Origin: Clostridia bacterium
GTDB lineage: Bacteria; Bacillota; Clostridia; Acetivibrionales; DSM-27016
Assembly (NCBI GenBank): GCA_026414765.1
Contig: JAOAIJ010000052.1
Coordinates: 1-64,000 of the forward strand
Direction: 5' to 3'
DNA: 64,000 bases
Part shown: piece by piece, positions 4,760-33,683 of the stretch
Numbering within the stretch: position 1 is the stretch's first letter
How the letters are laid out: every line of letters begins with the position of its first letter
Position numbers and translations under genes: made by a program
The notes under the pieces: generated by a model
Seen by the model: only the letters and a program-made list of their open reading frames with translations
Database searches by the model: none
What the model was told of the DNA's origin: nothing

Positions 4760-4789
4760 AAATAGAGCTTTATTAAGGAGATAATGCAT

Positions 4790-6270: not shown

Positions 6271-6355
6271 TGAAAGTACAGCATGCAAAGAGGGATAGCT
6301 TCTATCTAACGGGGTGTACGGTGAGATGAGGCATAGTAGATATGGAGGGTTTTAG

Positions 6356-7831: not shown

Positions 7832-8517
7832 AAAGAATATTAATAATTGAAGATGAAGCAAGTATTGCAGAACTGGAGAGGGATTATCTCGAAATAAACG
7901 GCTTTTCTGTTATTATTGAGAATAGTGGTGATACAGGTTTAAAGAGAGCTGTTGGTGAAGAATTCGACCTGATTGTATTGGACCTTATGCTGCCTAAAAT
8001 TGATGGGTTTGAAATTTGCAGACAAATCCGGAATGAAAAAAACACACCTATTCTTATGGTATCTGCAAGAAAGGAAGATATAGATAAGATAAGAGGCTTG
8101 GGTCTCGGAGCCGATGACTACATCACTAAACCTTTCAGTCCCAGTGAACTGGTAGCAAGGGTAAAAGCCCACATTACAAGGTATGAACGTCTGGTAGGAA
8201 ATAATAAGCAAAAAGATGAGGAAATAAGGATCAGAGGGTTAAGAATAGATAAAGCTTCAAGGCGTGTTTTCGTTAACGACACTGAAGTTGTTCTTACTAC
8301 TAAGGAATTCGATTTGCTTGTGTTTCTGGCGCTTAATCCCAACAGGGTTTTCAGCAAGGAAGAAATATTTGACAGGATATGGGGTATGGATTCTATAGGT
8401 GATATAGCTACTGTAACTGTCCACATAAAGAAAATAAGGGAAAAAGTAGAGCTTGATTCTTCAAACCCCCAGTATATTGAAACCATATGGGGTGCAGGGT
8501 ACAGGTTTAAGGTTTGA
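7828..8517 (+). CDS. OmpR/PhoB-family response regulator
   Basis: A 229-aa regulator: receiver domain (1-120) with acidic pocket E8-D9, phosphoacceptor D52 (I-V-L-D-L-M-L-P) and the K-P-F lysine, followed by a winged-helix DNA-binding domain (about 130-229) ending W-G-A-G-Y-R-F-K-V. The gene is translationally coupled to the kinase by an ATGA overlap and is the last gene before a terminator. It probably controls the ABC operon just upstream. Control of the biosynthetic cluster downstream is possible but not shown. Confidence 0.93.
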   Translation: MKRILIIEDEASIAELERDYLEINGFSVIIENSGDTGLKRAVGEEFDLIVLDLMLPKIDGFEICRQIRNEKNTPILMVSARKEDIDKIRGLGLGADDYITKPFSPSELVARVKAHITRYERLVGNNKQKDEEIRIRGLRIDKASRRVFVNDTEVVLTTKEFDLLVFLALNPNRVFSKEEIFDRIWGMDSIGDIATVTVHIKKIREKVELDSSNPQYIETIWGAGYRFKV

Positions 8518-8944: not shown

Positions 8945-11900
8945 ATGTTGAAATTAACACGGGATAACATCAAACAGTCGGTTTATGAAATTATATCGAA
9001 GGTTACAGGGCACATAACTGAGGACCTGGATAATGACATGTACCTTGAGGCAGATTTGGGGCTGGATTCAATTAAGATGATAACATTGATGAATGAGATT
9101 ATTAAGCTGGTCCTACCTGAGCAAATGGAAGAATTCAAAGACAGATATCCCCCAGCGTCATTGATGGCAATGCAATCCGTGGGAGATATTGTTGAAATCT
9201 TCGAAAAATGGTATGAGCAGGCTGCCGATGAACAAGCGGGACAAAACAAAGACAGTCCGGGAATGCCTGTTTTAAGTGACAATGATAATGTATTTCATAG
9301 TTATAGTGAAGCAGCACCAGTCAACGCCGACATCAAACAGTCGGTTTATGAAATTATATCGAAGGTTACAGGACACACAACTAAGCATCTGGACAATGAT
9401 ATGTACCTTGAGGCAGATTTGGGGCTGGATTCAATTAAGATGATAACATTGATGAATGAGATTATTAAGCTGGTCCCACCCGAACAAATGGAAGAATTCA
9501 AAGACAAGTATCCAGCAGCGTCATTGATGGCAATGCAATCCGTGGGAGATATTGTTGAAATCTTCGAAAAATGGAAAAAATCAGCAAATATACAAAACAA
9601 GAATCATGTAATAAATTCGGAGGCTGGATCTACCGGAGGAAAGCAGCCTGAGTATCTGCAAATCTTAAATTCCCAGTACCCTTTTCTAATGTGTTATCAG
9701 ACAATATCCACGCTTACAATCAGTTCGGGAGTAATGATATACGGTGAATTAAATATAACCTGCCTGAAAGATGCCTGGAAAGAGTTAATCTTTCGGCATC
9801 CGTCACTACGCGTGATGTTTGAGAAGCTACCGGGGGCTAAAAGCTTTAAGGGATACAGCCAGAAAGTCCTAAACAACTTTCTTCTACCGGATATTCCGGT
9901 AGAGGATGTAAGATATCTTAATAACAGCGAACATGAGCAATTCCTGAAAGAAACATATGAAAAAAGCTTAAATCATAAGTTTGATTTATTTTCATGGCCT
10001 TTACATAAGATAACTGTAATTCGTACAGGAGACAGAAGCTACAATCTTATTCTGTCAATTATACATCTAATTTCAGATGGGCTTGGAAATCAGCAAATAT
10101 TAAAAGAATTACTGGAAATTTATGCAGCAAAGCTTGATGGCAGAATGGCAGACTTGCCGCCGGCTGTTTTAGTGCCCGGGTATAATGATTTAGTGAAAGA
10201 TATGAATTCGTGGAATAGCACTGAAGAGAATAGTGCACTTGAGAGTTACTTAAGGCAGCAAGGAAAGGAAAAATACTTCTTTAACCCATCAGATAAAAAG
10301 CTTGATTTGCCAGAACCGTTTACACCCATTAAAACAAAAGTAAAAAAGTACTGGATTAATGAAACCGTTACTAAGAAGTTTATTTTAAATACTAAAGTAT
10401 GGCACGTTTCGCTATTTGTACTTTTAGTCAGTGCATATTTAAAAACCATCAAACAGCTCGAAGAAAGCACGGAAAAAATAATTATAAACCTGCCTACAGG
10501 CGGAAGGGTATATCCAAATGCTGATGCTACAGGTATTTTAGGATCATTTGCCCAAAATATGGCATTAACTTTCTATGTCGAAAGCGACACTGAAACATGG
10601 AAAGACTTGATTGAAAGAGTAAACACAGAGATAAAGAGCAGATTGGCATCAGGGATAGACAGGGCACAGACATATCAAGCCGCTTTCGCAGCAAAAGAGA
10701 ATGAGATGCTGATAGACGGTGAAATACCTGAAACAGTTGCTTCAATTATACGTTCTTCGGTTAAATCCAACCTATATCTTTCTTTTGTAGGGAATACATA
10801 TATAAAAGAACTTTATGGAAGTCTGGAAGTTAGGGATTATGAAGCATATACATGTACAAATCCCGGAACAATTGATATCCTCGTGGAATTGTTCCATGGA
10901 AGGATATTACTCACTTCAAATTATGACAGTACTTTTTTTGATGAAGCATATATTGATGTACATATGAACAGATTAGTAGACAACATTAATGAACTTGCAG
11001 AGGTGAGTGAAGAAAACGGGGAGGTTAGTCAGACAGTATTAACGCCTGTGACTTGCAGCAAAGAGGTTGAAGCAGAGCTTTGCAGGATAGCAGGAGAGAT
11101 ATGCCAAAGAGAATTCAGAAATTTTGATTTGGACAAAGATATTGATTCAGAGCTCGGCATAGATTCGCTTGAACGCATCCGTATAGTTGCAAGGTTAAGC
11201 AAGGTAAAGAAAAATTTGGATAGAAAGAGTCTGTTTAATTGCAGGACACTTAGGGAAATGTCGTGGCTGCTGGATGAAAATATTACTTCCGCCAACGGAA
11301 AGAATGATAAAACCAATATTCAAATTCCCTATTTGAAAGTAGTTGAACAATGCAGATTAACTCCGGATGCACAAGCAGTACTTTTTGAGGAACAAAGCAT
11401 TTCATATTCAGAGCTGGAACACATCACAAACAAGCTTGCAAATTGTCTTAAAAGTAAAGGGATAGGAAGAGGAACTATTGTCGGAATCATGACTTTGCCC
11501 GGACCTATGATGATTTTAGGCATGCTTGGCATATTAAAATCAGGAGCTGCTTACGTACCGGTAGATGCATCATATCCGACAGGAAGGATTCAATATATCA
11601 TAAACCATTCTGAGCTTAATGTGCTGCTTACAGAAGAAACACTAGCGGAGCAGGTAAAGGGCTTGATAAAAGATTGTCCAGGTATCAAAAGCCTAATTTT
11701 TCTTGACAATCTAACCAAACGTCAGGAATTCCAATCGATCGGACTGGTCGAAAAAGATGCATGGATGGCATTTCCCGCAATTCAGCCAGAGTACGAAAGC
11801 AGCCCGGATGATTTGATGGTAGTCCTCTATACTTCCGGATCAACCGGAAATCCAAAAGGGGTAATGCTTAATCACCTGGGATATATGAACCGTTTGGAAT

Positions 11901-14900
11901 GGCACCAAAAAAAATTCAACTTAAAGCCGGGCGAAAGGGTGGCGCAAAAAACCTCATGCTGCTTTGATATATCTGTATGGGAGCTGTATTGGCCATTAAT
12001 GTACGGTGGTACATTATGTCCTGTCCGAAAGGAGATAGTAAGAAATCCCTGGGAGCTTGCCCAGTGGCTGATAGATACTAAAATAAACATAATGCATTTT
12101 GTACCGTCGCTTTTTGGCGAGTTTGTTCATGCTTTGGAAGATGAAGATTATTATTTTAAAGATTTGCGCTGGCTGATTTTCAGCGGAGAGGCCCTCCCTA
12201 TGTCCTATATACAGGAGTGGATAGACAAACATGGTATGTCCACCAAGCTGGCAAACCTGTACGGCCCGACAGAGGCTTCAATAGATGTTACATATCATAT
12301 CATTGATAAGAGGCCTGGCTCTGACGGGGAAAGCCAGATTCCTATTGGAAAGCCTATAGACAACGTTAATATTCTTAACCTTGATGAAAACATGAGGATG
12401 TTGAGTGAAGGAGAGATCGGGGAGCTATGGATAGGAGGCATACAGCTTGCAAAGGGATATTTAAAAAATCCGGAGAAGACGGCTGAAGCTTTCAAACCCA
12501 ACCCTTTTAAAGAAATACAGGGTGATTATCTTTACCGAACCGGGGATTTGACAAAAAAAAGAGCAGATGGAAGCTTTGAGTATCACGGGCGTATTGATAA
12601 CCAAGTAAAAATACGTGGTTTTAGAGTTGAACTGGGTGAGATAGAGACAGTTTTAAGCAGTCATTGCAATATAAATGAAGCAGCGGTTATTGCAGTTGAA
12701 AGCAGTGAAGGACAAAGTCAGCTTGTGGCTTACTTGTCAGGAAAGATGACTGCGGATTCCGAAATAAAAGATTACATAGGAAATAAACTTCCGTATTACA
12801 TGATCCCTCACAGGATAGAATGGGTGCAGAGCCTTCCCAAGAATCCGAACGGCAAGCTTGACAGAAGGGCGGTTAAGGAGTTGTACTTTAACAAAAGCGG
12901 AGGGGCAAGGGAAATAGAGCCGCTAACAGCTCCGGTCAAAAAAGAAAGTCCTCAGGCTGGCAATAATGAAGAAAAAGAAGTTTTTATACCGCTCGCACCG
13001 GCTCAAAACTGGCTAATGAGCTACTTCGATTACCCCTACAACTGGACAGGATACACTAGATTTTTGTTTAAACAGTCATTGGATTACTGTGCATTCAACA
13101 AGGCAATAACTATGCTTACAAACAGACATGATGCCTTAAGGAGCATATTGTGCCGCAAGGGGTCCAGGTGGGTCCAGAAAATACTGCCTCAGGGCGAATA
13201 CATAAATGTTGAATATCTTGATGCGTCCCACATGAATAAGAAGCAGATTGATGACGCGGTTAATGCACTGATAAGGGATACAATTCAAGTATTTAGTGTT
13301 GACAAATGGCCTCTGTGGAAGATTATAGCGATTAAGACCCCGGACAATCTGCATGACATGGTTATAGTCGGGCATCATCTTATTTCTGACGTAGTAACGA
13401 ATAGCCTGTTGTTTAAAGAGTTATGGCAAATTTACTATCATCTTTTATCGGAAGAGAAAATTAAACTTCAAACTCCTGGATCTTTCAGAGAATTTGTAGA
13501 GCTTGTAGAATCGGAAAAAAGTAGAAAATGGAAGGAATACATTGACTATTGGACGAAAATGTTCCCTTCAAAAGAACAGATATTCAGTATTCCTACAGAT
13601 TTTGCACCGGGCTCTAATGACGAAGGCTCTGCCGATACAGAAAAATTTGTACTTGATAATATGCAAACCGCCAAAATATTAAGCAATGCAAAGAAGTTTT
13701 TTTGCAGCAATGTCTATTCAATCCTGCTTGCTCCCCTTTATAAGATGTTGGGAGAACAATACCGGCAGTCTAAAGTTATAGTAAGCCACAGAGTGCATGG
13801 GAGGGATGTTGGCGGAGATAATACATTTTTCCAGACAGCAGGCAATTTTGCAGTTAACTTTCCATTAGGTATTGAAATTGACCAGAATGAAAACTGGGCA
13901 AGTTTAGTTGAAAAAATTAAGGGAACACTTAAAAAGGTTCCTATGAACGGTATAAGCTATGATGTTGTTTCTGAGAACTTGCCTGTATACATGTGCCCTG
14001 ATATTAAGCTGACCCCTGTCAGGGCAAATTACCTTGGCAACAGGGATGTGCCCCAATTTGACGTTTTTGAGTTTTACAAAAATGGAAAGGATAGAAGGTA
14101 CTCACTACCCCAACAAAAAAGGATATCCATAATTGAATTTTTCTTTTCAATAGTAGACGGAAGCTTGAATGTGGAAATTGAATACTCAAGGAATCTATAT
14201 AGTGCGGATACCATAAAGCAGCTTGGTGAAAAATATATGGAGTCCCTTAAAATGCTTATAGGATTTGTTGAGGGAGTATCATGCGATAAGAACAAGACAG
14301 TCAACAACTCAAAATACAGCAAGGGATTGCTTTCAGACAAAGTTGTAATTGTAACAGGAGGGGGAAGGGGTATTGGTAGAAGCATTGCACTTTCAATGGC
14401 TAGGGAAGGCGCTGAAATAGTTATTGTATCGAGGACTAAGGAAGATTTGGAACAAACGGCAGGTGAAATACAAAAGCTTGGTGGAAGGCCAATGATAATT
14501 CCGGTTGATGTCACTAAGCTGTCTGATGTTAACAGTGCTGTAGAGAAAATTTTGCGCGAGTTCGGAAGAATTGATGTACTGGTAAATAATGCAGGAATCA
14601 CAAAGCTTGCAGCTATTAATGATATTGAACCTGATGAATGGCGGAAAATCATTGAGGTGAATCTCTTTGGGACATATAATTTTTGTAAAGCTGTCATTCC
14701 GCATTTTACAAAGAGAAATCAGGGGAAGATCATCAATATAGGTTCAGATTCGTCCTTTATCGGGTATCCGCTAATGAGTGCCTATAGTGCATCAAAGCAT
14801 GCGGTACTTGGGCTGACAAAATCCCTGGCTGAAGAGCTAAAGCTCCAAAACGTTCAGGTTAATGCTATTTGCCCTGCATTGGTGGATACCGGCATGGCAC

Positions 14901-15094
14901 CGAAAGCATTAAGAAACGGGGCTATTCCTCCTGAGAAGATATCCGATACGGCTGTTTTTCTGGCTTCTTCCATGTCTGATTACATTACCGGAGAAGCCAT
15001 AAAAGTATATGGCAAACAGGATATGTACTGGTTTGGTTCCCGGCAAACGGATATGTTTAAAACAATATTGCAGGATAAGAGGAATGTTACTTGA
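8945..15094 (+). CDS. Nonribosomal peptide synthetase, T-T-C-T-A-C-SDR
   Basis: A 2049-aa multidomain enzyme. Order read from motifs: carrier 1 (about 8-90, Ser42), carrier 2 (129-211, Ser163), condensation (about 240-685; I-H-L-I-S-D-G with catalytic H374), carrier 3 (about 705-780, Ser741), adenylation (about 795-1315; T-S-G-S-T-G-N-P-K-G, Y-G-P-T-E, Y-R-T-G-D, N-G-K-L-D), a second condensation domain (about 1345-1790; H-H-L-I-S-D-V, H1478), and a short-chain reductase (about 1797-2040; T-G-G-G-R-G-I-G, S1936-Y1947-K1951). Pocket residues D1008, I1009, W1012, H1051, I1078, S1080, L1105, I1113, D1114, K1304 are close to the serine code. No carrier follows the A domain, so carrier 3 before it must be loaded. 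There is no thioesterase. It is the first gene of the cluster but probably acts after the PKS protein. Confidence 0.92.
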   Translation: MLKLTRDNIKQSVYEIISKVTGHITEDLDNDMYLEADLGLDSIKMITLMNEIIKLVLPEQMEEFKDRYPPASLMAMQSVGDIVEIFEKWYEQAADEQAGQNKDSPGMPVLSDNDNVFHSYSEAAPVNADIKQSVYEIISKVTGHTTKHLDNDMYLEADLGLDSIKMITLMNEIIKLVPPEQMEEFKDKYPAASLMAMQSVGDIVEIFEKWKKSANIQNKNHVINSEAGSTGGKQPEYLQILNSQYPFLMCYQTISTLTISSGVMIYGELNITCLKDAWKELIFRHPSLRVMFEKLPGAKSFKGYSQKVLNNFLLPDIPVEDVRYLNNSEHEQFLKETYEKSLNHKFDLFSWPLHKITVIRTGDRSYNLILSIIHLISDGLGNQQILKELLEIYAAKLDGRMADLPPAVLVPGYNDLVKDMNSWNSTEENSALESYLRQQGKEKYFFNPSDKKLDLPEPFTPIKTKVKKYWINETVTKKFILNTKVWHVSLFVLLVSAYLKTIKQLEESTEKIIINLPTGGRVYPNADATGILGSFAQNMALTFYVESDTETWKDLIERVNTEIKSRLASGIDRAQTYQAAFAAKENEMLIDGEIPETVASIIRSSVKSNLYLSFVGNTYIKELYGSLEVRDYEAYTCTNPGTIDILVELFHGRILLTSNYDSTFFDEAYIDVHMNRLVDNINELAEVSEENGEVSQTVLTPVTCSKEVEAELCRIAGEICQREFRNFDLDKDIDSELGIDSLERIRIVARLSKVKKNLDRKSLFNCRTLREMSWLLDENITSANGKNDKTNIQIPYLKVVEQCRLTPDAQAVLFEEQSISYSELEHITNKLANCLKSKGIGRGTIVGIMTLPGPMMILGMLGILKSGAAYVPVDASYPTGRIQYIINHSELNVLLTEETLAEQVKGLIKDCPGIKSLIFLDNLTKRQEFQSIGLVEKDAWMAFPAIQPEYESSPDDLMVVLYTSGSTGNPKGVMLNHLGYMNRLEWHQKKFNLKPGERVAQKTSCCFDISVWELYWPLMYGGTLCPVRKEIVRNPWELAQWLIDTKINIMHFVPSLFGEFVHALEDEDYYFKDLRWLIFSGEALPMSYIQEWIDKHGMSTKLANLYGPTEASIDVTYHIIDKRPGSDGESQIPIGKPIDNVNILNLDENMRMLSEGEIGELWIGGIQLAKGYLKNPEKTAEAFKPNPFKEIQGDYLYRTGDLTKKRADGSFEYHGRIDNQVKIRGFRVELGEIETVLSSHCNINEAAVIAVESSEGQSQLVAYLSGKMTADSEIKDYIGNKLPYYMIPHRIEWVQSLPKNPNGKLDRRAVKELYFNKSGGAREIEPLTAPVKKESPQAGNNEEKEVFIPLAPAQNWLMSYFDYPYNWTGYTRFLFKQSLDYCAFNKAITMLTNRHDALRSILCRKGSRWVQKILPQGEYINVEYLDASHMNKKQIDDAVNALIRDTIQVFSVDKWPLWKIIAIKTPDNLHDMVIVGHHLISDVVTNSLLFKELWQIYYHLLSEEKIKLQTPGSFREFVELVESEKSRKWKEYIDYWTKMFPSKEQIFSIPTDFAPGSNDEGSADTEKFVLDNMQTAKILSNAKKFFCSNVYSILLAPLYKMLGEQYRQSKVIVSHRVHGRDVGGDNTFFQTAGNFAVNFPLGIEIDQNENWASLVEKIKGTLKKVPMNGISYDVVSENLPVYMCPDIKLTPVRANYLGNRDVPQFDVFEFYKNGKDRRYSLPQQKRISIIEFFFSIVDGSLNVEIEYSRNLYSADTIKQLGEKYMESLKMLIGFVEGVSCDKNKTVNNSKYSKGLLSDKVVIVTGGGRGIGRSIALSMAREGAEIVIVSRTKEDLEQTAGEIQKLGGRPMIIPVDVTKLSDVNSAVEKILREFGRIDVLVNNAGITKLAAINDIEPDEWRKIIEVNLFGTYNFCKAVIPHFTKRNQGKIINIGSDSSFIGYPLMSAYSASKHAVLGLTKSLAEELKLQNVQVNAICPALVDTGMAPKALRNGAIPPEKISDTAVFLASSMSDYITGEAIKVYGKQDMYWFGSRQTDMFKTILQDKRNVT
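8968..9574 (+). repeat. Tandem in-gene duplication of the carrier domain
   Basis: Bases 8968-9211 recur at 9331-9574 with an exact 363-bp period. By hand comparison they differ at 14 of 244 positions, many of them synonymous. The linker between them (9212-9330) is not repeated. The two encoded carriers both keep the L-G-L-D-S-I-K-M site. Confidence 0.93.
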
Positions 15095-15111
15095 TATGAG
15101 AGGTTGATGGC

Positions 15112-16278
15112 GTGAGAATAGATTATGACAAACTCATTGGAAGCAATAAATGGGTTATGTATTGTGTAGCTTTGATGACAGGGTTTGCAATGGGGGTTAT
15201 AAACCCTCTTGCAACCACCCATATGACAAAAAACAATGTAGGAAACATTTGGGTTGGGGCAATTTCTTCTTCATATTTTCTATTTATGGCTCTTGGTTCA
15301 ATGCTTATTTATAAAAAGCTTAGAGGAAAAGATGTAAGAAGGATGCTGATATCGGGACTATTGCTGACAGCTGCTTCTTCAATAGGTTTTCCCCTGGTAA
15401 ATAACAAGGTTTTATGGTTTTTGCTGATGAGCCTTATGGGGGCAGGTATCAGCCTTAATATGGTGGGTATTCAAACAGTCATGCATAATGTAACTGAAAG
15501 CGGCAGCAAAGCACTGGTCAGCGGTATTTACTCCTTCTGCTTTGCTGTAGGATTTGTTATCAGTGCCGTAATTGGCCCGAGAATTTATGAGAAATCTACA
15601 TGGATGGCTTTCTTAACAGGAGCGCTTTGCCTTTGTATTTCAGCTTTTTTAATCAATTTCAAGCTAAAAAATCTGCTGACAATACCGGCATATAGTGAAG
15701 GAAAGATATTTTCAAAAATAACTGTAGCCCTATTTGGAGCCTTCGCATATGGCTTTTCCGAAACCACTCTGGTGTCACTTTATCCTCTCTTTATGATCCG
15801 GCTTAATTTCGAACTTTCACAGGTGGGATATGCATTAGGTATATTTATAGTAGGAAGTATACTCGGGACTATACCTATAACCTACATGGCAGACAGAATC
15901 GGCCGGAAAAAATGTCTGGGGATAGCTATATTTGCTTCATTGTTTGCTGTTGCAGGTATTATGGCTTTTGACAGTTTCAGCAGCAAATTAATATTTTCAT
16001 TTATTGCCGGCTTTACAATCGGGCCTGTTTATCCACTCTCTCTAGCACTGTCAGTCCAGGACCTTTCCCAGGAGGAACTGTTGTCAGGAACAGCCTTGTT
16101 TACTTTTGCTTATGGCATTGGTTCAACGGCAGGTCCGTTTTTATCGTCTGTTGCAATGAGGTATTTAGGCAACAACTATATATTCAGCATTAGTTTATTA
16201 ATTTTTATAATCATGTTAGCATATATGGTCATACCTAGCATGTATTCTAAGAATTTTATCTCAAAGGGAAAAGCTTAA
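15112..16278 (+). CDS. MFS transporter, probable product exporter
   Basis: A 388-aa membrane protein with about 12 hydrophobic helices and the major-facilitator loop motif A-D-R-I-G-R-K-K between helices 8 and 9. The N-terminal half carries a second small basic loop (Y-K-K-L-R-G-K-D-V-R-R). The GTG start is chosen because GAGAGG lies upstream; it begins 17 bases after the NRPS stop. Its position between the two megasynthase genes argues for export of the product or self-resistance. The substrate is not determinable from sequence. Confidence 0.88.
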   Translation: MRIDYDKLIGSNKWVMYCVALMTGFAMGVINPLATTHMTKNNVGNIWVGAISSSYFLFMALGSMLIYKKLRGKDVRRMLISGLLLTAASSIGFPLVNNKVLWFLLMSLMGAGISLNMVGIQTVMHNVTESGSKALVSGIYSFCFAVGFVISAVIGPRIYEKSTWMAFLTGALCLCISAFLINFKLKNLLTIPAYSEGKIFSKITVALFGAFAYGFSETTLVSLYPLFMIRLNFELSQVGYALGIFIVGSILGTIPITYMADRIGRKKCLGIAIFASLFAVAGIMAFDSFSSKLIFSFIAGFTIGPVYPLSLALSVQDLSQEELLSGTALFTFAYGIGSTAGPFLSSVAMRYLGNNYIFSISLLIFIIMLAYMVIPSMYSKNFISKGKA

Positions 16279-16335
16279 ACTAACTAAAAGTTAAAAGGGT
16301 TATAGCTAATATAGCTGATAAATGGGGGTAACCAA

Positions 16336-19300
16336 ATGAAAAGTTCTAAAATAAACAGGGAATTAAAGTTGTCCCAGTCAAAAGGAGCAGATATTACAGG
16401 AATATTCTGTGACAGGGGCAACATTGCATATTTGCTTATTGATTCTGTGCGAAACGGCAAAGGAATAACATTTATTCAGGAAGATGACTCGGAGCTGTTT
16501 TTGACATATGAAGCAATTCTTCAGAAAGCGCTTCAGCGTTTAGGTGGTATGCAAAAGGCAGGTATAAAGGCAGGGCAGTATGTTTTAGTGTTAATGGACA
16601 ACAGCATTGATTTTGTCACTACCTTTTGGGCATGCATATTGGGAGGTATTATCCCTGCACCTCTCATTTATCCTACTTCTACAAAAGTAATGAATTCAAC
16701 TTTGAAAAAGTTGGAGGCAGTTTGGAACGTTTTGGGGAAGCCATTGGTTTTATCGGACAAAAATTTGTCGGACAGCAAGGAAGAAATTCAAAAAACTATT
16801 GGAAACAGAGAGATTGAAATTGCTGATGTTTATAAATTCGATGGTAGTAGTGAAGCGGGGAAGATGAGCCTTGCTGATAAGAATTCAACTGCATTCATTC
16901 AGTTCAGTTCAGGAAGCACCAGTATTCCGAAAGGTGTTGTTTTAACCCATAACAACTTATTGATCAATATAGAAGCAATTGCTGCAAGTGCTCAGTTAAC
17001 AAGCGAAGATAAATCTCTCGGATGGATGCCGTACCACCATGATATGGGTCTGATTGGTTTTCACCTTACTATGACAGGGGTTGGAATGGACCAGTTCAAT
17101 ATGACGCCCTATAAATTTGTTAAAAAGCCTAATCTATGGCTGCAGCTTATTTCAAAGCACAGAATAACAACTACGGGCTCGCCTAATTTCGGATACAGGC
17201 TAGTATTGAACAGATTAAAACCGGAACTGATGGAAAATTTGGATCTGTCCTGCTTGAAACATTTGTTTAACGGTGCTGAGCCGATAGCTGTATCGCTAAT
17301 GGAAGAGTTTATGGAAAAACTTTCTGTTTATGGGCTGAAGAAAAACGCAATGTACCCTGTTTATGGAATGGCAGAGGCTTGCTTGGCAGTTAGTTTCCCA
17401 ACACCATATGAGGAGCCTCTTATCCACTCTTTGAACAGAAAAAATCTTGTTTCAAAATCAAATGTTACATATATAGACAGGCAGCATAAGGGCGCACTGC
17501 TGTTAGCTGACGAGGGCTACCCTGTAAGCGGTATGGAGATCAGGATAGTGGATCAGAAAGGCGCTGTCATACATGAAGGATATATAGGGGAGATACAGAT
17601 ACGGGGAAACAATGTTACCTCTGGCTATATAAATAATCCTGAGGCAAACAGAGCAGCCTTCCAGGACGGCTGGCTAAAAACCGGGGACACAGGGTTTATG
17701 ATAAATGGACGCCTTACTGTGGTAGGACGTTTGAAGGATATAATATTTGTTAATGGACAGAATTTCTTTGCACATGATATTGAGGCTGTAATAGAAGAAC
17801 TGGAAGGTGTAGAATCTGGAAAGATTATCGCTTGCGGATGGCACGATGAAACGGAAGAAAGAGAAAAGGTGGCTTTGTTTTCAACCCTCCATATTAAGAA
17901 AGAGCGTATAAAAGTATTTTACTCAAAAATTATCAAGCATGTAAACGAAGTGTTTGGAATACCTATAGACCATGTAGTATCAGTACCCACGATACCAAAA
18001 ACAACAAGCGGAAAAATACAGCGTTTTGCGTTGGTAGAATCATTCAGGAATAATGAGTATGCAGGGAAAGTAATAGATGCTGCCGAGCTGAGCTGTGAAT
18101 CCGGAGATGAAGTACGGGAGAAACCTGTAAATACATTAATGCTTGCAGAAACTATCCGAAGTATCTGGTCGAAGGTGTTGGAGAGGTCTGAAAGCACTAT
18201 TTCCTACGATCAGCCCTTTCTTTCCTTAGGTGGCACCTCAGTAAAGGCTATTCAGGTTTTAGGCTTGCTGGAAGAAGAACTTGAATTAAGACTGACCCAT
18301 GATTTATTGATAAAATGCCGTACCGTCAGGGATATGGAGGAGTACATTTCAAATATTTATAACAATAGGGGGGCAAATATACGAAGCCTGCCGGAGGCAA
18401 GGAAAACAGGAGAGGATAATCTGAATGAAAATGATGACGTAGCAGTTATCTCAATGGCATGCCGCTTCCCTGACGCCTCCGGTACCGAAGAATTCTGGAA
18501 CAATATTTTGAATGGCAAATGCAGCATAGGCGATATCCCTCCGGAACGTTGGAATGTTGATGATTATTACAGTCCTACAGCCGAATTTGGAAAAACATAC
18601 TGCCGTACCGGGGCATTCATTAATAATATATATGACTTTGACCATGGGCTTTTTAACATAGAGGAAAAAGAAGCGGAAATCATGGACCCTCAACAAAGGA
18701 TGATTCTTGAATTGGTTTTTGAACTGATTGAAAGAGCAGGATACCCGCGTCATAAGGTTGACGGCAGAAAAATAGCTTTGTATATAGGTGCAAGCACAAA
18801 TTCATATTACGAATATCATCTGAGCACACTGAATAAAGCAAATCTGCAAAACTTTGAAAGCTTTTCCGCACTTTCGAAAGTGCAGCAGGATTCAATTATG
18901 GAAGAGTGGAGGAACAAACTGGGTGTGACGGAAGCCCATCCCAATATACTTGTAGATAATATTCTGAACATGATTGCTGCGAGGGTATCACAGGAATTTA
19001 ACTTCAAAGGTCCGGCCCTGGTTCTGGATACTGCATGTTCATCATCTCTTGTAACTATTCATCTGGCATGTGAATCGTTGAAAAGAGGTGAATGTGAAAT
19101 GGCCATTGCAGGTGGGGTCAACCTTTTGCTTACACCTACACCATATGTATATTTCAGCAGTGCAGGGGCTTTATCCACCAGCGGCTCGTCAAAAGTCTTT
19201 GATGTAGATGCAGACGGTTTTGTTCCGGGTGAGGGTGCCGGTCTTGTTATGCTCAAACCTCTTAAAAAAGCCGTTCAGGATAAGGACGATATTCTTGCTG

Positions 19301-22300
19301 TAATAAAAGCCAGTGCAATAAATAACGACGGGCATTCAATCGGGGTTATGGCTCCGAATCCGGATGGACAAAGAGAGGTTATAGAATCACTATATAACAG
19401 GTGCGATTTAAGTCCTGCCAGTGTCCAGTATGTGGAAACTCACGGCACGGGAACTAAAATTGGAGATCCCAGTGAGATAAGGGCGCTTGATAATGCATTC
19501 AAATATTGGAATTTGGGGAAAAACACCATTGCTGTAGGGTCTGTCAAGGCAAATATCGGTCACCTGTTAAGTGCAGCAGGTGTGGGGAGTTTTATAAAAG
19601 TAGTACTGGCACTTATGAATAAAAAAATTCCGCCTCAGACAAATGTTTCAACTCCAAACCCAATGATAAAATTTACACAGACACCATTTTACATCCTGAA
19701 TGAAGCTAAAAACTGGGACGTTGAAGCTGGTGTTCCAAGGCGTGCAGCAATCAACTCCTTCGGTTTCGGAGGGACAAACTGCCATATTATTGTGGAGGAA
19801 AAACCGGTAGATTCCGGGATTTCTCCGGAAGGATACGTGGAAAAGCCAAAGCACTTGTTATGTTTATCTGCAAACACGCAGGCTTCCTTAAAACGGAAAA
19901 TATGCGAGCTTTCAAATTTCCTTGAGAAGAATGATGATTATTTGATTGGCAACGTATGCTACACCGAGAATTTGCTGAGGTCTTCGTTTAAGCATCGTCA
20001 CTATGTTATCGCCGGCAGTACCAAAGAGCTGGTTGAAAAGTTAAATAAAGCAGATTTGGAAGGAGCTACTCCGGCCATGTCTCCTAAAACTGCTCTCATG
20101 TTTACCGGCCAGGGTTCCCAGTATGCAGGAATGGGAAGGGAATTGTACGAAAAGCTGCCTGCTTTCAGAAAATACGTGGATAGTTGCTCAGATGCGTTCT
20201 TTCCGTATCTTAATACTAGAATAGCAGATCTGATGTATGGCGAAAGTGCTGATGACAGATTTCTGGCTCAGACCAATATAACACAACCTGCAGTATTTAC
20301 AATAGATTATTCCCTGGGAAGCTTGATGCTTGATTTTGGAGTCAAGCCCGCATATATCCTCGGGCATAGCGTGGGTGAGTGGGCTGCCGCCTGTGTTGCC
20401 GGTGTTGTGAGTCTTGAGGATGCTGCTAGACTTGTATCTGCCAGGGGAAGGCTGATGGGCGAGCTAAAAGTTTCAGGGGCAATGGCAGCAGTGTTCACTA
20501 AAGGGTCTGAGATTGAAGCACTGCTTCAGACTTATGAGGGCTCCCTGTGGGTTGCTGCTTACAATATCACACATCAGGTAGTTTCAGGAAAAGCTGATGC
20601 AATGGACGATTTTATAAGAAAACTTCAAAACAGGGGTGTAGCTGTAAAGAAGCTTAATGTTTCACAGGCCTTCCATACTCCGATGATGAACCCTATGCTG
20701 GAGGCCTTTAGAAAGGAGCTTGAAGCAACTACCTTTAATGTACCGAAGATTCCGGTAGTATCAAATATAACGGCTGAAAACTACACCGGGCCGTTTACTG
20801 CGCAATATTGGCTTGACCATATACTGGGAGCCGTGAGATTTGAGCAAAGCATAAAATATATGCTTGATAGGGGTGTAAATATCCTCGTTGAGGCAGGGCC
20901 TGACAAAATTCTAACAGGTATGGCAAGCGGCCTTGCATCTCAAAATAGTCATATCCTGGCCGGCATGGACCGGAAAAAGGATAACTGGGATACGCTTTTA
21001 AGTACCGTTGGAAAGCTGTTCATGCATGGCGTGAATATAAACTGGGATGAGTTTGAAAAAGGGTATGGACATAAGAAAGTACCTCTTCCGGTGTATCCGT
21101 TTGAAAGAAAAACATTAATGCCGGATTTCGGGGACAGGCATTTACTGGGTCTTACAGGCAAGTTTGACAACTGGCTCCATGAATGGTGCTGGAAGCAAGA
21201 AAATATTGCACAGGTAAGCCAAATAAATGACGGAGCTGTTATTATATTTGGTAATGATGAAGGTGCAATGAATGATTTTGAGTTGAGTTTTAATACTGAA
21301 AAAAATACTGTCTATTATGTGACTTACGGCAGAGAATTCGGTTATGACGACAAGCGGAGATTTGTAATAAATCCGGCAAGCCAGGAAGACTATTTCAAAT
21401 TACTTTACAGTGTAGATAAAATATCTTCAATAATACATATGTGGAATTACTGCCAGAATACCGCCCAGCCCTCAGAGTTGTTAGATAATGATGAGGTTTT
21501 ATGCACAAGTACATACAGTGTACTGCTGCTTGGGAAAGCGCTCTCGCAACTGAATTTTGAAAACCTGCGCTTGATGTTTGTTACAAACAAAGCATTCTGG
21601 ATATCCGCGGAATCTGATATACAAAATCCGCACCAATCTTTAGCTGTCGTGCTTGGGCAAGCCCTGGACTTTGAGGTCAAAGGCCTGGTCTCAAGCGTAC
21701 TGGACATTGACAAGGAAGACTATGCTTCAGGGACAGAAGCAGCCAGAACCATAGTCGATGAGCTCAGGCGGAAGCCAAGTGCAGAGGCTGTAGTTGCCAT
21801 ACGGAAAAAGGAGCGGTTTGTAAGAAGCCAGCAAAAAGCTTCCATATCAAAGCATAAGGAGGATATATGCATAAGCGAAGGTGAAACCTACCTGATAACC
21901 GGAGGAACAGGACTCATAGGGGGAGCCATAGCCGGTGCTCTTGTAAAACGTGCCGGAGTAAATCTGGTACTGACAGGAAGGGGAGAACTGCCACCCAGAG
22001 AAGAATGGAATGACAGTTTGCCGGAAGCTGCACCGGCATCAAAAATTGCGCTGATTCAAACCCTGGAGAGTATGGGGGCGAGAGTTGCATATTTCGCAGC
22101 AGACGTATCGGATAAAAAACAGATGACTGAAATGGTCAGAAAGGTAAATGAAGAATTTGGTCCTATTCATGGAGTCGTGCATGCAGCAGGGATACTGGAT
22201 GCTACTTCCTATAAGCTTCTGGAAAAAGACCTGGAATCCTTTAAAAAGGTACTTGGTGCTAAGGTACATGGGACAATAATAACTGACATTGTAACAAAAA

Positions 22301-25300
22301 AAGAGCCGTTGAAATTCTTTGTATCAATTTCTTCCGTCTCTGCCTCCAGGAAGGAATGGAGTGCCGGAATTGCAGACTATGCTGCTGCCAACTATTTTCT
22401 TGACTGTTTCAGCAGTTATAGGGCAAAAACCGGTTCGCCGGGCAAATCACTTGCCATGAATTATTCATTGTGGGAGACAGACGGGAAAGGCATCGTATCG
22501 GGAGATATGTTCACCCTGGCCGTAAAATCTCAGGGTTTAAAGCCTTTGCCTGCCCATGGAGCTGCGGAAATGTTCATTAGGGCTCTTAACTATAAAGACC
22601 AGAATGTTATACATATAATGGATTTGCTGGAATCATACAGAGAGAACAGGTCTTTTAGGGCGGAATCTAAAGCTGCTTTTGAAGAAGGCAAAACGAAAGT
22701 ATTGTGCAAAACGCCAAATGAAATAAGAATTACTGTATATGGTGTTATAGCAGATGAGCTCGGTATTGAGGCAGATAAAATTGATGAGGGGATGAATTTC
22801 CTTGAAATGGGTCTTAATTCTGTGGACGCAACAAAGGTTGTTGCTAAAATAGGCAAATTACTTGATATGGAATTGTATCCAACTTTGATATTTGAATACC
22901 AGACTCCTGAAGCTCTATTAAAGTATATTGAAAAAACTTACACTGTTTCTGAAAGTGAAATAGCTGTAAAAGAAAATTACTATAGGTGCAATGACAGTAC
23001 AAATAAAGATGAGCTTCAGGATATTGCCATTATCGGTATCGGACTTAGAATCCCGGAAGCGAAAACACTGGATGAATACTGGGATATACTGATGAACGGC
23101 AAGTGTACTATAAAAGAGGTTGCGGAAGAAAGGTGGCCGATAGATGAAAACTTCAATACCGATAGAAACTTGCTTCATGCAACTTATTGCAGGCATGGAG
23201 GGTTTCTGGATAAACCCTATGATTTTGACCCTATCTTCTTTGGAATGTCTCCAATAGAAGCTGAAGCGACAGATCCCCAGCAGAGGATATTCCTTCAGGT
23301 CGCATGGGAGGCTGTTCAACAGGCGGGTTACGGAGGAAAATACAAATCAAACAAAATCGGTGTTTTTGTAGGTTCTGAGCAAAATACATATATGGAGCAT
23401 TTTGCCGGCTACCGTACATATATGATCATTAAAAATAAGATGGAAAAAAGTCAGGCATTAATAAATATGAATCCAAAAGAGCGTAAGGAAGTAATGTCAA
23501 ACATTTTGAAAGTGATCAAACCCGGAAGGTTGATAGCAGATGCGGTAGCTGGAAACGGGCTGAATGAGATTGCTGCAAGAGTAAGCCATTGCCTGAACCT
23601 TTCAGGCCCAAGCCTTATTGTCAACTCGGCTTGCTCTTCCTCCCTTGTAGCTCTTCATATGGCGTGTGAAAGCTTGAGAACAGGCCAGGCAGATATGGCT
23701 ATAGCCGGAGGGGTGAATCTGAATCTGAGTCCGACACCTTTTGTAAGCCTAAGCAGGGTCACAGCATTATCTCCAACAGGAGCATGTTATCCATTTGATA
23801 AAAGGGCTGACGGAATGGTATTGTCAGAAGGGGCAAGCGCAGTACTTCTTAAGCCATTGAAATATGCGTTGAAAGATAACGACAATATTTTTGCTGTAAT
23901 AAAGGGTTCTGCTATAAACAATGACGGGCATTCCCAGGGACTAACGGCACCAAGGCCACAGGGGCAAGCTGAAGTAATAAGGGATGCTTATATCAGGTCA
24001 GGAATAAATCCCGAAACGGTTTCATATATTGAAACTCATGGTACAGCTACTCCTTTGGGAGATCCGATAGAAATTGAAGGAATGACTCATGCGATGCGTT
24101 CATTTACCTCAAAGAAGTATTTTTGCGGGATAGGATCAGTAAAGTCTTCGGTGGGTCATATGCTGTCGGCAGCAGGACTTGTAAGCCTTATAAAAGTTGC
24201 TTTAGCTTTAAAGTTTAAGACCATTCCACATACTATAAACTTTGAAGAGCCAAACCCTAATATTGACTTTAGCAATTCACCATTTTATGTAGTGAGTAAG
24301 GAGCCAAAGGAATGGAAAACAGAGGGTACACCTTTAAGAGCAGGGGTAAATGCTTTTGGCTTCGGCGGAACAAATGCTCACATAATACTTGAAGAGGCAC
24401 CTGGAATAAAAAGCATATCTACTGAATTGACGGATGCGAGGCAGCATAACATAGTTTTCTTGACAGGCAGGAATGAAAAAGTACTGAAAACTATTGCCAG
24501 GAACATCAGAGAGCATATGGAAAAGAAGACTGAGCTTAATTTGTCCTCCGTATGCTTTACAATAAATAATTCCCAGAAGGATTTTTCGTTGAAAAACGCA
24601 TTTGTTACTGATTCAAGGGAGCACTTTATAAGCATGCTATCAAAGATTGAAAGCAGCGGAGAATGTCCTGAGATAATCCAGGGACGTTCAAATCCTAACA
24701 GAGTAACGCCTCTGAGTATGATATTGGATAACAGTTTTGAATTGTCTGGAAATGACGTAGATGAAATAATTAAACGGTTTGAAGTTTTTGGTCGTGCATA
24801 CATAGAGTGCAAGCAAATATTTGAAAATGAAAACTGCGGTGATGGAAGCAACCCTATGGCAAAAACTATAGAAAGTTTTGCATTGCAATATGCTTTTGGT
24901 GCAATGATGAGTAGTTTTGAAATCAGATTCAAGAGTATAATCTGTGAAGAAACTGCAATTTTAGTTGGAGCTGCATTAACCGGGATTATTACTATGAAGC
25001 AGGCTGCCAGATTCCTTATGAACAGGAGTGATTATAAGGATAATGATATTGGGGGAAGCACCGGCAGCATACTTATGTGTCCTGTCATTACACCTTTGGG
25101 AACAGCCGATAAGGAAAATGTATTTGATTTAGTTACACATACATATAAGGCAACTGGTGAAAAATCATCTGTAGATTATTGCAGAGAAACTTTTAATAAG
25201 GATGAAGCTGTCGTTTATTTAGGTAGTAATAAGTCTAAAGGTATTGAATTTGAAAAAATGAAGGTTAAAAACTTGCAATGGATAGAAATGGATATGGGAA

Positions 25301-25656
25301 GGAATTCTATTGAATCAATACTGATTGTTATGGCAAAGCTTTATACTACAGGTGTCGGTTTTAATCCTTCAAAGCTAAGCGCAGGTGCACCGGGAAGGGT
25401 GCCGTTACCCACGTATCCTTTTGAAAATGCCGAGTACAGAGTTTCTTTTGAGGATGAAGCAATAGAGGTAACCGGTGAAGCTGAATTTGCCGGCGAAAAA
25501 TACTATCAATCAGTTACCGGAAATCAAAATGATACTTCAAGTGTAATTTTAACAAAGCCAGGACTGAAAAAAATTAATGTTCTTGAAAGCATAAACGATA
25601 CTGAAAGAATATCCTGTATAGAACAGTTAAGAAGGGATCTGAGTAAAATCAGCTAA
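16336..25656 (+). CDS. FAAL-PKS megasynthase with decayed terminal AT
   Basis: A 3106-aa protein. Domains: fatty acyl-AMP ligase (1-575; F-S-S-G-S-T-S-I-P-K-G, H-H-D-M-G-L), carrier (about 600-675, Ser635), ketosynthase 1 (700-1155; C901, H1036, H1076), acyltransferase (1250-1590; G-H-S-V-G with S1345, and Q-A-F-H, the malonyl-type motif), ketoreductase (1850-2050; T-G-G-T-G-L-I-G-G, Y2015, N2019), carrier (2125-2200, Ser2162), ketosynthase 2 (2228-2690; C2433, H2568, H2608), then an AT-like remnant (about 2790-3050) in which G-H-S-x-G is replaced by C2870-E-E-T-A. No carrier or thioesterase follows. The final ~25 charged residues could be a docking segment. FAAL activity loads a free fatty acid as the acyl-adenylate. 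GGGGG precedes ATG 16336. Confidence 0.93.
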   Translation: MKSSKINRELKLSQSKGADITGIFCDRGNIAYLLIDSVRNGKGITFIQEDDSELFLTYEAILQKALQRLGGMQKAGIKAGQYVLVLMDNSIDFVTTFWACILGGIIPAPLIYPTSTKVMNSTLKKLEAVWNVLGKPLVLSDKNLSDSKEEIQKTIGNREIEIADVYKFDGSSEAGKMSLADKNSTAFIQFSSGSTSIPKGVVLTHNNLLINIEAIAASAQLTSEDKSLGWMPYHHDMGLIGFHLTMTGVGMDQFNMTPYKFVKKPNLWLQLISKHRITTTGSPNFGYRLVLNRLKPELMENLDLSCLKHLFNGAEPIAVSLMEEFMEKLSVYGLKKNAMYPVYGMAEACLAVSFPTPYEEPLIHSLNRKNLVSKSNVTYIDRQHKGALLLADEGYPVSGMEIRIVDQKGAVIHEGYIGEIQIRGNNVTSGYINNPEANRAAFQDGWLKTGDTGFMINGRLTVVGRLKDIIFVNGQNFFAHDIEAVIEELEGVESGKIIACGWHDETEEREKVALFSTLHIKKERIKVFYSKIIKHVNEVFGIPIDHVVSVPTIPKTTSGKIQRFALVESFRNNEYAGKVIDAAELSCESGDEVREKPVNTLMLAETIRSIWSKVLERSESTISYDQPFLSLGGTSVKAIQVLGLLEEELELRLTHDLLIKCRTVRDMEEYISNIYNNRGANIRSLPEARKTGEDNLNENDDVAVISMACRFPDASGTEEFWNNILNGKCSIGDIPPERWNVDDYYSPTAEFGKTYCRTGAFINNIYDFDHGLFNIEEKEAEIMDPQQRMILELVFELIERAGYPRHKVDGRKIALYIGASTNSYYEYHLSTLNKANLQNFESFSALSKVQQDSIMEEWRNKLGVTEAHPNILVDNILNMIAARVSQEFNFKGPALVLDTACSSSLVTIHLACESLKRGECEMAIAGGVNLLLTPTPYVYFSSAGALSTSGSSKVFDVDADGFVPGEGAGLVMLKPLKKAVQDKDDILAVIKASAINNDGHSIGVMAPNPDGQREVIESLYNRCDLSPASVQYVETHGTGTKIGDPSEIRALDNAFKYWNLGKNTIAVGSVKANIGHLLSAAGVGSFIKVVLALMNKKIPPQTNVSTPNPMIKFTQTPFYILNEAKNWDVEAGVPRRAAINSFGFGGTNCHIIVEEKPVDSGISPEGYVEKPKHLLCLSANTQASLKRKICELSNFLEKNDDYLIGNVCYTENLLRSSFKHRHYVIAGSTKELVEKLNKADLEGATPAMSPKTALMFTGQGSQYAGMGRELYEKLPAFRKYVDSCSDAFFPYLNTRIADLMYGESADDRFLAQTNITQPAVFTIDYSLGSLMLDFGVKPAYILGHSVGEWAAACVAGVVSLEDAARLVSARGRLMGELKVSGAMAAVFTKGSEIEALLQTYEGSLWVAAYNITHQVVSGKADAMDDFIRKLQNRGVAVKKLNVSQAFHTPMMNPMLEAFRKELEATTFNVPKIPVVSNITAENYTGPFTAQYWLDHILGAVRFEQSIKYMLDRGVNILVEAGPDKILTGMASGLASQNSHILAGMDRKKDNWDTLLSTVGKLFMHGVNINWDEFEKGYGHKKVPLPVYPFERKTLMPDFGDRHLLGLTGKFDNWLHEWCWKQENIAQVSQINDGAVIIFGNDEGAMNDFELSFNTEKNTVYYVTYGREFGYDDKRRFVINPASQEDYFKLLYSVDKISSIIHMWNYCQNTAQPSELLDNDEVLCTSTYSVLLLGKALSQLNFENLRLMFVTNKAFWISAESDIQNPHQSLAVVLGQALDFEVKGLVSSVLDIDKEDYASGTEAARTIVDELRRKPSAEAVVAIRKKERFVRSQQKASISKHKEDICISEGETYLITGGTGLIGGAIAGALVKRAGVNLVLTGRGELPPREEWNDSLPEAAPASKIALIQTLESMGARVAYFAADVSDKKQMTEMVRKVNEEFGPIHGVVHAAGILDATSYKLLEKDLESFKKVLGAKVHGTIITDIVTKKEPLKFFVSISSVSASRKEWSAGIADYAAANYFLDCFSSYRAKTGSPGKSLAMNYSLWETDGKGIVSGDMFTLAVKSQGLKPLPAHGAAEMFIRALNYKDQNVIHIMDLLESYRENRSFRAESKAAFEEGKTKVLCKTPNEIRITVYGVIADELGIEADKIDEGMNFLEMGLNSVDATKVVAKIGKLLDMELYPTLIFEYQTPEALLKYIEKTYTVSESEIAVKENYYRCNDSTNKDELQDIAIIGIGLRIPEAKTLDEYWDILMNGKCTIKEVAEERWPIDENFNTDRNLLHATYCRHGGFLDKPYDFDPIFFGMSPIEAEATDPQQRIFLQVAWEAVQQAGYGGKYKSNKIGVFVGSEQNTYMEHFAGYRTYMIIKNKMEKSQALINMNPKERKEVMSNILKVIKPGRLIADAVAGNGLNEIAARVSHCLNLSGPSLIVNSACSSSLVALHMACESLRTGQADMAIAGGVNLNLSPTPFVSLSRVTALSPTGACYPFDKRADGMVLSEGASAVLLKPLKYALKDNDNIFAVIKGSAINNDGHSQGLTAPRPQGQAEVIRDAYIRSGINPETVSYIETHGTATPLGDPIEIEGMTHAMRSFTSKKYFCGIGSVKSSVGHMLSAAGLVSLIKVALALKFKTIPHTINFEEPNPNIDFSNSPFYVVSKEPKEWKTEGTPLRAGVNAFGFGGTNAHIILEEAPGIKSISTELTDARQHNIVFLTGRNEKVLKTIARNIREHMEKKTELNLSSVCFTINNSQKDFSLKNAFVTDSREHFISMLSKIESSGECPEIIQGRSNPNRVTPLSMILDNSFELSGNDVDEIIKRFEVFGRAYIECKQIFENENCGDGSNPMAKTIESFALQYAFGAMMSSFEIRFKSIICEETAILVGAALTGIITMKQAARFLMNRSDYKDNDIGGSTGSILMCPVITPLGTADKENVFDLVTHTYKATGEKSSVDYCRETFNKDEAVVYLGSNKSKGIEFEKMKVKNLQWIEMDMGRNSIESILIVMAKLYTTGVGFNPSKLSAGAPGRVPLPTYPFENAEYRVSFEDEAIEVTGEAEFAGEKYYQSVTGNQNDTSSVILTKPGLKKINVLESINDTERISCIEQLRRDLSKIS

Positions 25657-28188: not shown

Positions 28189-28221
28189 TGTTTTATTAGT
28201 ATAAATTCAGGGGGAATGTCT

Positions 28222-28923
28222 GTGTCACAAGAGAGAATAATGGTAGTAGATGATGAAAAAGAGTTGGCAGAAATAATGCGTGATTATCTTCAAACAGAAG
28301 GCTTTACCGTACATATGGCTTTTGATGGAGAGGATGCGCTGAAGGGATTTAAGCTTTTTGACCCCCAGCTTGTAATACTTGATGTTATGCTTCCTAAAAT
28401 AGATGGAATGGAAGTATGCAGGATGATACGTTCCCAGTCAAGCATACCCATACTGATGCTAAGTGCAAAAAGCAGTGATATTGATAAAATACTGGGTCTT
28501 GGACTGGGAGCAGACGACTATATATCAAAGCCTTTCAGCCCAGGTGAAATGGTTGCGAGGGTAAAAGCCCAATTAAGGAGATATATCCACCTGTCTGCTC
28601 CAAACCAGCAGTCATGTACATTAAAGTTTGGAAGTATGATAATAGAAGATAAATCATATACAGTAATGATTGACGGCAGGAAGGTTGAACTGGCTGCCAA
28701 GGAATTTGAATTGTTAAGCTATATGGCGCATCATCCGATGCAGGTTTTTACAAGGGAACAATTATTCAACCAGATATGGGGCTTTGATGAGTATGGTGAT
28801 ATTAACACTGTAACTGTGCATATAAGAAAGATAAGGGAAAAAGTAGAAAAAGACCCTTCAGAACCAATATATATAAAGACTGTATGGGGAGTCGGATATA
28901 AATTTGATGGCGGTGAGGCATGA
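28222..28923 (+). CDS. OmpR/PhoB-family response regulator
   Basis: A 233-aa regulator: receiver with D10-D11, phosphoacceptor D54 (V-I-L-D-V-M-L-P) and K-P-F, then a winged-helix domain ending W-G-V-G-Y-K-F-D-G. An ATG at 28216 lies only one base after GGGGG, whereas GTG 28222 has a 7-nt spacing, so GTG is chosen. It overlaps the kinase gene by 4 nt. The kinase and this regulator precede an ABC exporter whose promoter carries 11-bp-spaced repeats, suggesting a sense-and-export module. Confidence 0.92.
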   Translation: MSQERIMVVDDEKELAEIMRDYLQTEGFTVHMAFDGEDALKGFKLFDPQLVILDVMLPKIDGMEVCRMIRSQSSIPILMLSAKSSDIDKILGLGLGADDYISKPFSPGEMVARVKAQLRRYIHLSAPNQQSCTLKFGSMIIEDKSYTVMIDGRKVELAAKEFELLSYMAHHPMQVFTREQLFNQIWGFDEYGDINTVTVHIRKIREKVEKDPSEPIYIKTVWGVGYKFDGGEA

Positions 28924-30347: not shown

Positions 30348-30361
30348 CCGATTTATTTACG

Positions 30362-30393
30362 GGGATGTAGTCCGGTTAGGGATACATCCCTTT
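30362..30393 (+). terminator. Probable terminator after the kinase
   Basis: GGGATGTA pairs with TACATCCC around a 13-base loop, followed by TTTATG. The T-run is short, so some readthrough is possible. Confidence 0.55.
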
Positions 30394-30400
30394 ATGTATG

Positions 30401-30461: not shown

Positions 30462-30506
30462 TGTAGGCAGTAAGCTAACAAAAAGTCTTAAGGAGAGTGC
30501 ATATAG

Positions 30507-31265: not shown

Positions 31266-31266
31266 G

Positions 31267-33630: not shown

Positions 33631-33635
33631 GGATG

Positions 33636-33667: not shown

Positions 33668-33683
33668 GAATTATGAATATATT

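Follow-up and report, generated by a model that had tools for sequence, protein, structure and literature searches.

A conserved clostridial FAAL-PKS-NRPS cluster with a predicted split module, an epimerization-type domain lacking the catalytic glutamate and an adjoining FMN_bind gene

Among the described systems closest to the locus reported here, the mutanoclumpin cluster mcg of a facultative anaerobe follows a similar scheme, with a fatty acid loaded by a fatty acyl-AMP ligase (FAAL), malonate extension and amino acid incorporation by a PKS-NRPS hybrid; mcg incorporates several amino acids and ends in a terminal R domain, according to the portion of its report covered here (PMC12403116). 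The celluxanthene cluster cex of cellulolytic clostridia likewise contains a type I PKS and has hosts that overlap with those considered below (C./A. straminisolvens), and is described, in the portion of the report covered, as holding an iterative PKS, two KASIII, a free ACP, a PPTase, an AMP-dependent synthetase and a hydrolase (PMC12144888). On the redox side, flavinylated extracytosolic redox proteins have been surveyed in eLife (PMC8238504); five classes of transmembrane partner appear in the portion of the survey covered, with no megasynthase cluster among them, and the term "polyketide synthase" occurs 0 times in its text. The epimerization (E) domains of the NRPSs GrsA, TycA, TycB, PvdL and BacC resemble one domain of our locus in whole-domain sequence and fold, as well as in their HHxxxD motif.

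Our analysis considered a window of 64,000 nucleotides from a Clostridia bacterium (assembly GCA_026414765.1, contig JAOAIJ010000052.1, positions 1 to 64,000). In the list of open reading frames (ORFs) of the window, three genes follow each other on the + strand, with the placement and the shared strand that a first-pass annotation had given them: an NRPS-like protein of 2049 aa (P0001, 8945-15094), an MFS transporter of 388 aa (P0003, 15112-16278; PF07690, 1e-35), which is present in 9/9 loci and is a presumed exporter, and a FAAL-PKS of 3106 aa (P0002, 16336-25656). At a Pfam threshold of 0.001, P0001 contains two condensation domains, PP-binding, AMP-binding and SDR, P0003 contains MFS_1, and P0002 contains AMP-binding, two PP-binding, two KS, one AT and one KR. 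When the ORFs and Pfam matches were combined with alignments for P0001 and with NCBIfam for P0002, the former read as ACP-ACP-C1-PCP-A-E*-SDR and the latter as FAAL-ACP-KS1-AT-KR-ACP-KS2-AT remnant. The conserved unit extends beyond position 25656, to at least 26105, where the gene of an FMN_bind protein ends (P0004, 25710-26105, + strand), followed by that of a small membrane protein (P0005, 26151-26498, + strand). The intergenic gaps, of 17, 57, 53 and 45 bp, suggest a single operon reaching 26498; promoter and terminator scans stayed at chance level and have no bearing on this, the operon being read from the short gaps. Our main reading, to which we assign a probability of roughly 60%, is that this operon specifies a hybrid assembly line whose product is a serine-tipped fatty acyl compound, along with the exporter of that compound and a membrane redox protein bearing flavin. 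It builds on the domains present, their active-site residues, and the conservation and linkage of the genes, with the enzymatic steps deduced from family knowledge.

As to the neighbourhood, a pair of ABC transporter genes lies directly upstream of the NRPS gene (4784-8517) together with a HAMP histidine kinase and an OmpR-type regulator, and downstream of the cluster, 28216-43729 holds a series of additional two-component systems and ABC transporters, the latter of FtsX and ABC-2 types. Three relatives have response regulators from this broad family nearby; the upstream ABC pair does not recur. A 5S rRNA gene lies at the edge of the window (125-241).

The NRPS, MFS and PKS genes are contiguous and in the same order, with the NRPS gene first, in all nine genomes in which they were found (the source genome included). 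As homologues spanning most of the NRPS length occur in eight further genomes, a chance assembly of these domains is excluded. Homologues of the E*-SDR half were found in 8 of 58 genomes of the order (source included), representing four families. In wider samples, a match was obtained in 2 of the 391 genomes taken from the class and in 1 of the 398 taken from the phylum, all three being the source genome or G040 (Ruminiclostridium hungatei); no further carriers were thus found in these samples, which can miss rare carriers. A scan of named genomes yielded seven loci, five of which are the cluster, with the other two being partial matches of 23-32% identity. The five carriers are R. hungatei, Anaerobacterium chartisolvens, a Clostridia MAG, Acetivibrio straminisolvens and Halalkalibacter hemicellulosilyticus. 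Most of these five are plant-biomass degraders. A plasmid search using a C1-to-E* query returned 536 records, none of which covered 80%. It should be noted that frame breaks interrupt the NRPS and PKS of G056 and the PKS of Halalkalibacter in the draft assemblies; for A. straminisolvens (L024; G056:C191:58600-75400), sequencing error and decay are indistinguishable as the origin of the split NRPS and PKS frames.

The flanks were compared all against all at 35% identity over 60% of the length, with window ORFs ending beyond 46000 excluded and G049 and G051 counted as one. Beyond the core and FMN_bind, the families in common were response regulators in four loci, ApbE and the small membrane protein in three loci each, and a single pair of ABC ATPases; apart from the response regulators, no further flank family occurs in more than three loci. 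Separate pathways for the two megasynthases were rejected, as the two are adjacent in all nine genomes while their flanks are mostly unrelated, and the single pathway proposed at first pass is thereby favored. The same annotation had described the gene order as opposite to the likely assembly order. The placement of NRPS before PKS is indeed conserved throughout, but in G049 and G051 the FAAL-ACP part forms a separate first gene, and the order there runs FAAL-ACP, FMN_bind, NRPS, MFS, PKS (gaps in G049 of 60, 40, 17 and -35 bp). In these two genomes, the flavoprotein gene thus lies inside the operon.

P0004 possesses an N-terminal hydrophobic stretch, recognized by eye, and an FMN_bind domain (PF04205, 3e-10) with a [ST]GAT-type flavin-attachment motif, SGATNSS. 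This motif is invariant in all eight aligned rows (seven cluster proteins and one from G021) and is also present in the G056 protein, and P0004 is expected from its sequence to carry a covalently bound flavin. Proteins of this family, of 124-147 aa, adjoin the cluster in 8/8 clostridial genomes in three arrangements. Five genomes have the gene 3' of the PKS; in G001 it lies divergently ahead of the NRPS, and G049 and G051 carry it between the separate FAAL-ACP gene and the NRPS. For Halalkalibacter, no FMN_bind was found in the 10 kb upstream, and the contig stops at the PKS; the gene preceding its NRPS (L025:7946-9643) resembles, by eye, a secreted glycoside hydrolase that carries a lectin-like part at its C-terminus. 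ApbE, with matches passing the Pfam cut-off, adjoins FMN_bind in G040, G054 and G056, that is, in only 3/8 clostridial loci, and the source genome holds two ApbE genes, both away from the cluster. P0005 itself has no Pfam match at E 1 and its G033 relative matches PF01292 (cytochrome b561) only below the cut-off (1.3e-4), such that the label cytochrome b561-like is tentative; the family is found in three loci, and four His are invariant across the four aligned rows.

FMN_bind and the small membrane protein could be neighbors with an unrelated, household redox role beside an ordinary orphan FAAL-PKS-NRPS cluster. FMN_bind homologues do occur elsewhere in these genomes, with 34 matches in the genomes scanned, of which 8 are cluster members. 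In 10 of the other 26 neighborhoods, which were inspected, no ORF exceeds 900 aa, though L059, one of these ten, has a free-standing FabF-like gene (412 aa). On this basis, we discarded the idea that FMN_bind belongs to a wider PKS habit; relatives of the flavoprotein occur elsewhere without a megasynthase, and this kind of flavoprotein is not specific to the pathway. In G021 (L053:3713-4558), FMN_bind and a relative of the His-rich membrane gene are paired after a TetR-like gene (by eye), with no PKS, and the pair is perhaps a free-standing redox module. Nonetheless, the FMN_bind gene is tied to the megasynthases in every clostridial locus, in each of its arrangements, while nearly all other flanks differ, and in two genomes it lies within the operon itself. 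We thus consider a household role unlikely, although it should be kept in mind.

Returning to the main reading, the line would start on P0002, all features of which lie on the + strand. Here, a FAAL domain (16423-18060; PF00501, 6e-51, with all NCBIfam fatty acyl-AMP ligase models below their cut-offs) is followed by ACP 1 (18133-18360; PF00550), and would activate a fatty acid and load it onto this carrier. Next come KS1 (18427-19851; Pfam, alignment), an AT (20083-21045; PF00698, 5e-53), a KR (21223-22485; PF08659, 2e-41, and alignment) and ACP 2 (22708-22965; second stretch of PF00550, alignment), which together are predicted to add one malonate and reduce the result to a 3-hydroxyacyl chain. 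The motifs of the KS, AT and amino acid A domains are kept in all eight aligned sequences, namely the window sequence and seven relatives. Specifically, both KS domains retain Cys-His-His in 8/8, and the intact AT, which reads GHSVG and QAFH in the window, retains GHS[VLI]G and [QH]AFH. We take QAFH to denote a malonyl-type AT. The two KS domains with one intact AT are consistent with the two malonate extensions proposed at first pass.

KS2 (23038-24255; Pfam, alignment) is followed by a remnant of a second AT (24571-25515) and by a C-terminal tail (25588-25653; alignment) that, by eye, is a possible docking element. The region behind KS2 aligns with the intact AT of the same protein with an hhalign probability of 99.5%, lacks the GHSxG serine and diverges fast, its identity to the window sequence being 24-60% vs 67-87% for KS2. 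A PKS that ends in a KS and a decayed AT, without a carrier, had been noted at first pass and is borne out by these data. As KS1 and KS2 are only 41-44% identical, a recent copy of the module is excluded.

The carriers that KS2 lacks are presumably those at the N-terminus of P0001, where the first-pass annotation had seen two. Neither is reported by Pfam at 0.001; both were found by motif. ACP a (residues 1-90, 8945-9214, + strand) contains DLGLDSIKM, with DLG[LM]DS found in 7/8 aligned sequences, and ACP b (residues 126-210, 9320-9574, + strand) is of the form DLG[LI]DS in 8/8. The exception is G033, which shows the second ACP alone; as a draft MAG, its repeat could have been collapsed. In the source genome, the two carriers are 88% identical over 86 aa and their DNA (8945-9574) is 91% identical over 258 bases, while in the other relatives the pair is 54-74% identical. 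Between species, ACP identity is 38-73%, mostly near 50, when the near-copies G049 and G051 are set aside. The pair thus seems to have been kept alike, by concerted evolution or repeated duplication, as would be expected for parallel carriers. As KS2 is on the PKS and its presumed carriers are on the NRPS, one module would be split over two proteins, consistent with the first-pass proposal. KS2, its own AT being decayed, would extend the chain with a second malonate borne on the tandem ACPs, with the malonyl group provided by the intact AT or by a separate AT.

The only PCP of the NRPS (11057-11284, + strand; PF00550, E 2e-18, alignment) stands before the adenylation domain (11327-12880, + strand; TIGR01733, 397 bits, cut-off 317), rather than after it, and only about 35 residues separate the latter from the next domain. 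The pocket, D-I-W-H-I-S-L-I-D-K, reads as serine-like when its positions and the serine code are set against what we take to be the EntF and GrsA residues. The A motifs and pocket residues are alike in 8/8 aligned sequences, except for I/L at one place in Halalkalibacter, agreeing with the serine predicted at first pass. The A domain would accordingly charge serine onto the PCP preceding it.

C1 (9647-11014, + strand; alignment, PDB search, model, tree) is a divergent condensation domain with HxxxDG, that is, HHxxxDG minus the first His. It gave weak matches in the PDB, and its branch is long in a tree that also holds 24 C or E domains from elsewhere in the source genome. Megasynthase domains abound in this genome (67 KS matches and 31 condensation matches); for the tree, 24 of the 31 were used, the two of the cluster were entered with their relatives and five partial matches were dropped. 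The model of C1 (mean pLDDT 74) is nearest to AzeD (Z 37.1, rmsd 3.0 over 411 residues), followed by the first C domain of CDA (Z 32.4, rmsd 3.1 over 400). C1 would couple the acyl chain to serine, yet as it is very divergent, its condensation role is not certain.

The rank of AzeD, which is titled a dehydratase and is also a weak sequence match to C1 (27 bits, E 2e-5), raises a variant in which C1 dehydrates serine to give a dehydroalanine product, with the reductases or the flavoprotein acting on the unsaturated product. Transient Dha in azetidomonamide-type pathways and dehydrating C domains are described in the portion covered of a review (PMC10880069). However, AzeD is absent from the 30 matches at 1e-5 of the C1 profile search and ranks only 15th of 31 in the C1 sequence search, while the modest confidence of the model weakens the structural match. 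Moreover, rows 2-5, 14, 15 and 17 of the structural matches are the CDA first C domain, which we take to be of the lipo-initiating type, or the rhizomide starter C domain, likewise lipo-initiating, and these fit plain acyl transfer. A dehydrating C1 is thus improbable.

In the C-terminal half of P0001, E* (12980-14260, + strand; PDB profile scores, Foldseek, tree, alignment) precedes the reductase. Against PDB chains, E* scored 125-152 bits with chains matched through their E domain alone, up to 193 (summed) with chains holding E and C domains, and at most 74 with E-less chains; within single chains holding both, the E part scored 81-86 bits vs 31-37 for the C part. The ten best Foldseek matches of the E*-SDR model (mean pLDDT 71) all contain an E domain. 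In VIA-align, all of the best 50 matches of this model are reductases, as the SDR filled the list. The NCBIfam model TIGR01720 scored 47.6 on E*, below its cut-off of 74.2, and in the tree E* stands beside two E domains of the source genome with weak support (84/73). By the PDB search and Foldseek, E* is thus closest to E domains across its full length, and the assignment as a plain terminal condensation domain was replaced by that of an E-type domain. The Glu of EGHGRE is the catalytic residue of epimerases. In E*, this motif reads [HQ]R[VLM]HGR[DE], with Arg in place of Glu in 9/9 genomes, while HHxxxD is retained. As the condensation-type His is kept but the epimerase Glu is gone, E* is unlikely to be an active epimerase. 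It also differs from the NRPS E domains named above in following an A domain rather than a PCP.

The C-terminal domain (14327-15064, + strand) is a FabG-like short-chain reductase (PF00106, 5e-65; FabG 4jro, Z 31.7, rmsd 2.5 over 228) that most likely provides the ketoreduction that the split module lacks. Its S-Y-K catalytic set is intact in 7/8 aligned sequences and lost in G054, where ketoreduction must then be absent or performed elsewhere. Among the Pfam matches of the megasynthases at 0.001, there is neither a thioesterase nor a terminal reductase or dehydratase family, and accordingly no dedicated release domain (TE or R); PF13561, which bears the name enoyl-ACP reductase, hits the SDR and KR regions alone, a consequence of overlap among SDR families. 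As no thioesterase or reductive domain was found, release would have to be carried out by E* or by an outside enzyme, our strongest guess being E*, given its condensation fold, intact His, missing epimerase Glu and late position in the line. That a 3-oxoacyl-serine thioester is instead released from the PCP by Dieckmann cyclisation, as a metal-binding 3-acyl tetramic acid whose metal complexes the flavoprotein reduces, is very improbable, since the intact SDR set in seven of the aligned sequences would remove the oxo group and no known Dieckmann cyclase domain was seen, even if the split module lacks its own KR, Pfam finds no release domain, the reductase loss in G054 would keep the 3-oxo group, and mutanocyclin is, in the portion of the report covered (PMC6694145), a tetramic acid that a PKS-NRPS cluster of Streptococcus mutans, a facultative anaerobe, produces.

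For the product of the hybrid line, a fatty acid with two malonates and serine is the best prediction of the core. The pathway, split module, malonates and serine of the first-pass annotation are thus retained, while the PCP before A, the loss of Glu from an E-type domain, the SDR, the gap in release and the FMN_bind/ApbE association had been missed. The MFS protein would export the product, and the FMN_bind protein, flavinylated by ApbE, would serve a product-linked redox function on the external side of the membrane. A more specific idea, which we regard as doubtful, is that product and flavoprotein are functional partners, the product being an assembly-line lipid that works in or with an extracytosolic electron-transfer chain, as a membrane redox carrier, metal ligand or flavin substrate, in anaerobes of a kind that commonly lacks quinones.

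The cluster represents a conserved, uncharacterised assembly line, spread over four families of one clostridial order and H. hemicellulosilyticus. Its layout tests the working rules that the carrier follows the A domain, that release needs a TE or R domain and that E domains epimerize. The constant flavoprotein neighbor would connect extracytosolic electron transfer with natural-product lipids, and no paper on such a connection was found in the open-licence literature. As R. hungatei DSM 14427 and A. chartisolvens DSM 27016 are available in culture, the product is open to direct search.

In comparison with known systems, no described cluster of matching domain layout was found in the open-licence literature, which is consistent with the first-pass remark that no characterised product matches; nor did that literature yield a megasynthase cluster accompanied by a flavinylated redox protein of its own. 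Compared with mcg, as far as the covered portion of its report goes (PMC12403116), our cluster has one A domain, a PCP before it, an E-type domain, a FabG-like SDR and a flavoprotein, with no R or TE domain found. Identity with the celluxanthene/YAS cluster was rejected on gene content, as the window cassette lacks the KASIII, free ACP, PPTase and hydrolase genes that accompany the iterative PKS of cex in the portion of the cex report covered (PMC12144888). With the flavinylated extracytosolic redox proteins, as presented in the covered portion of the survey (PMC8238504), the locus has in common an FMN_bind domain with SGAT, a likely membrane anchor and ApbE. If the doubtful partnership of product and flavoprotein were true, this would be the first case known to us of a megasynthase cluster joined by its own flavinylated redox protein, and one in which an E-fold domain has been repurposed for release.
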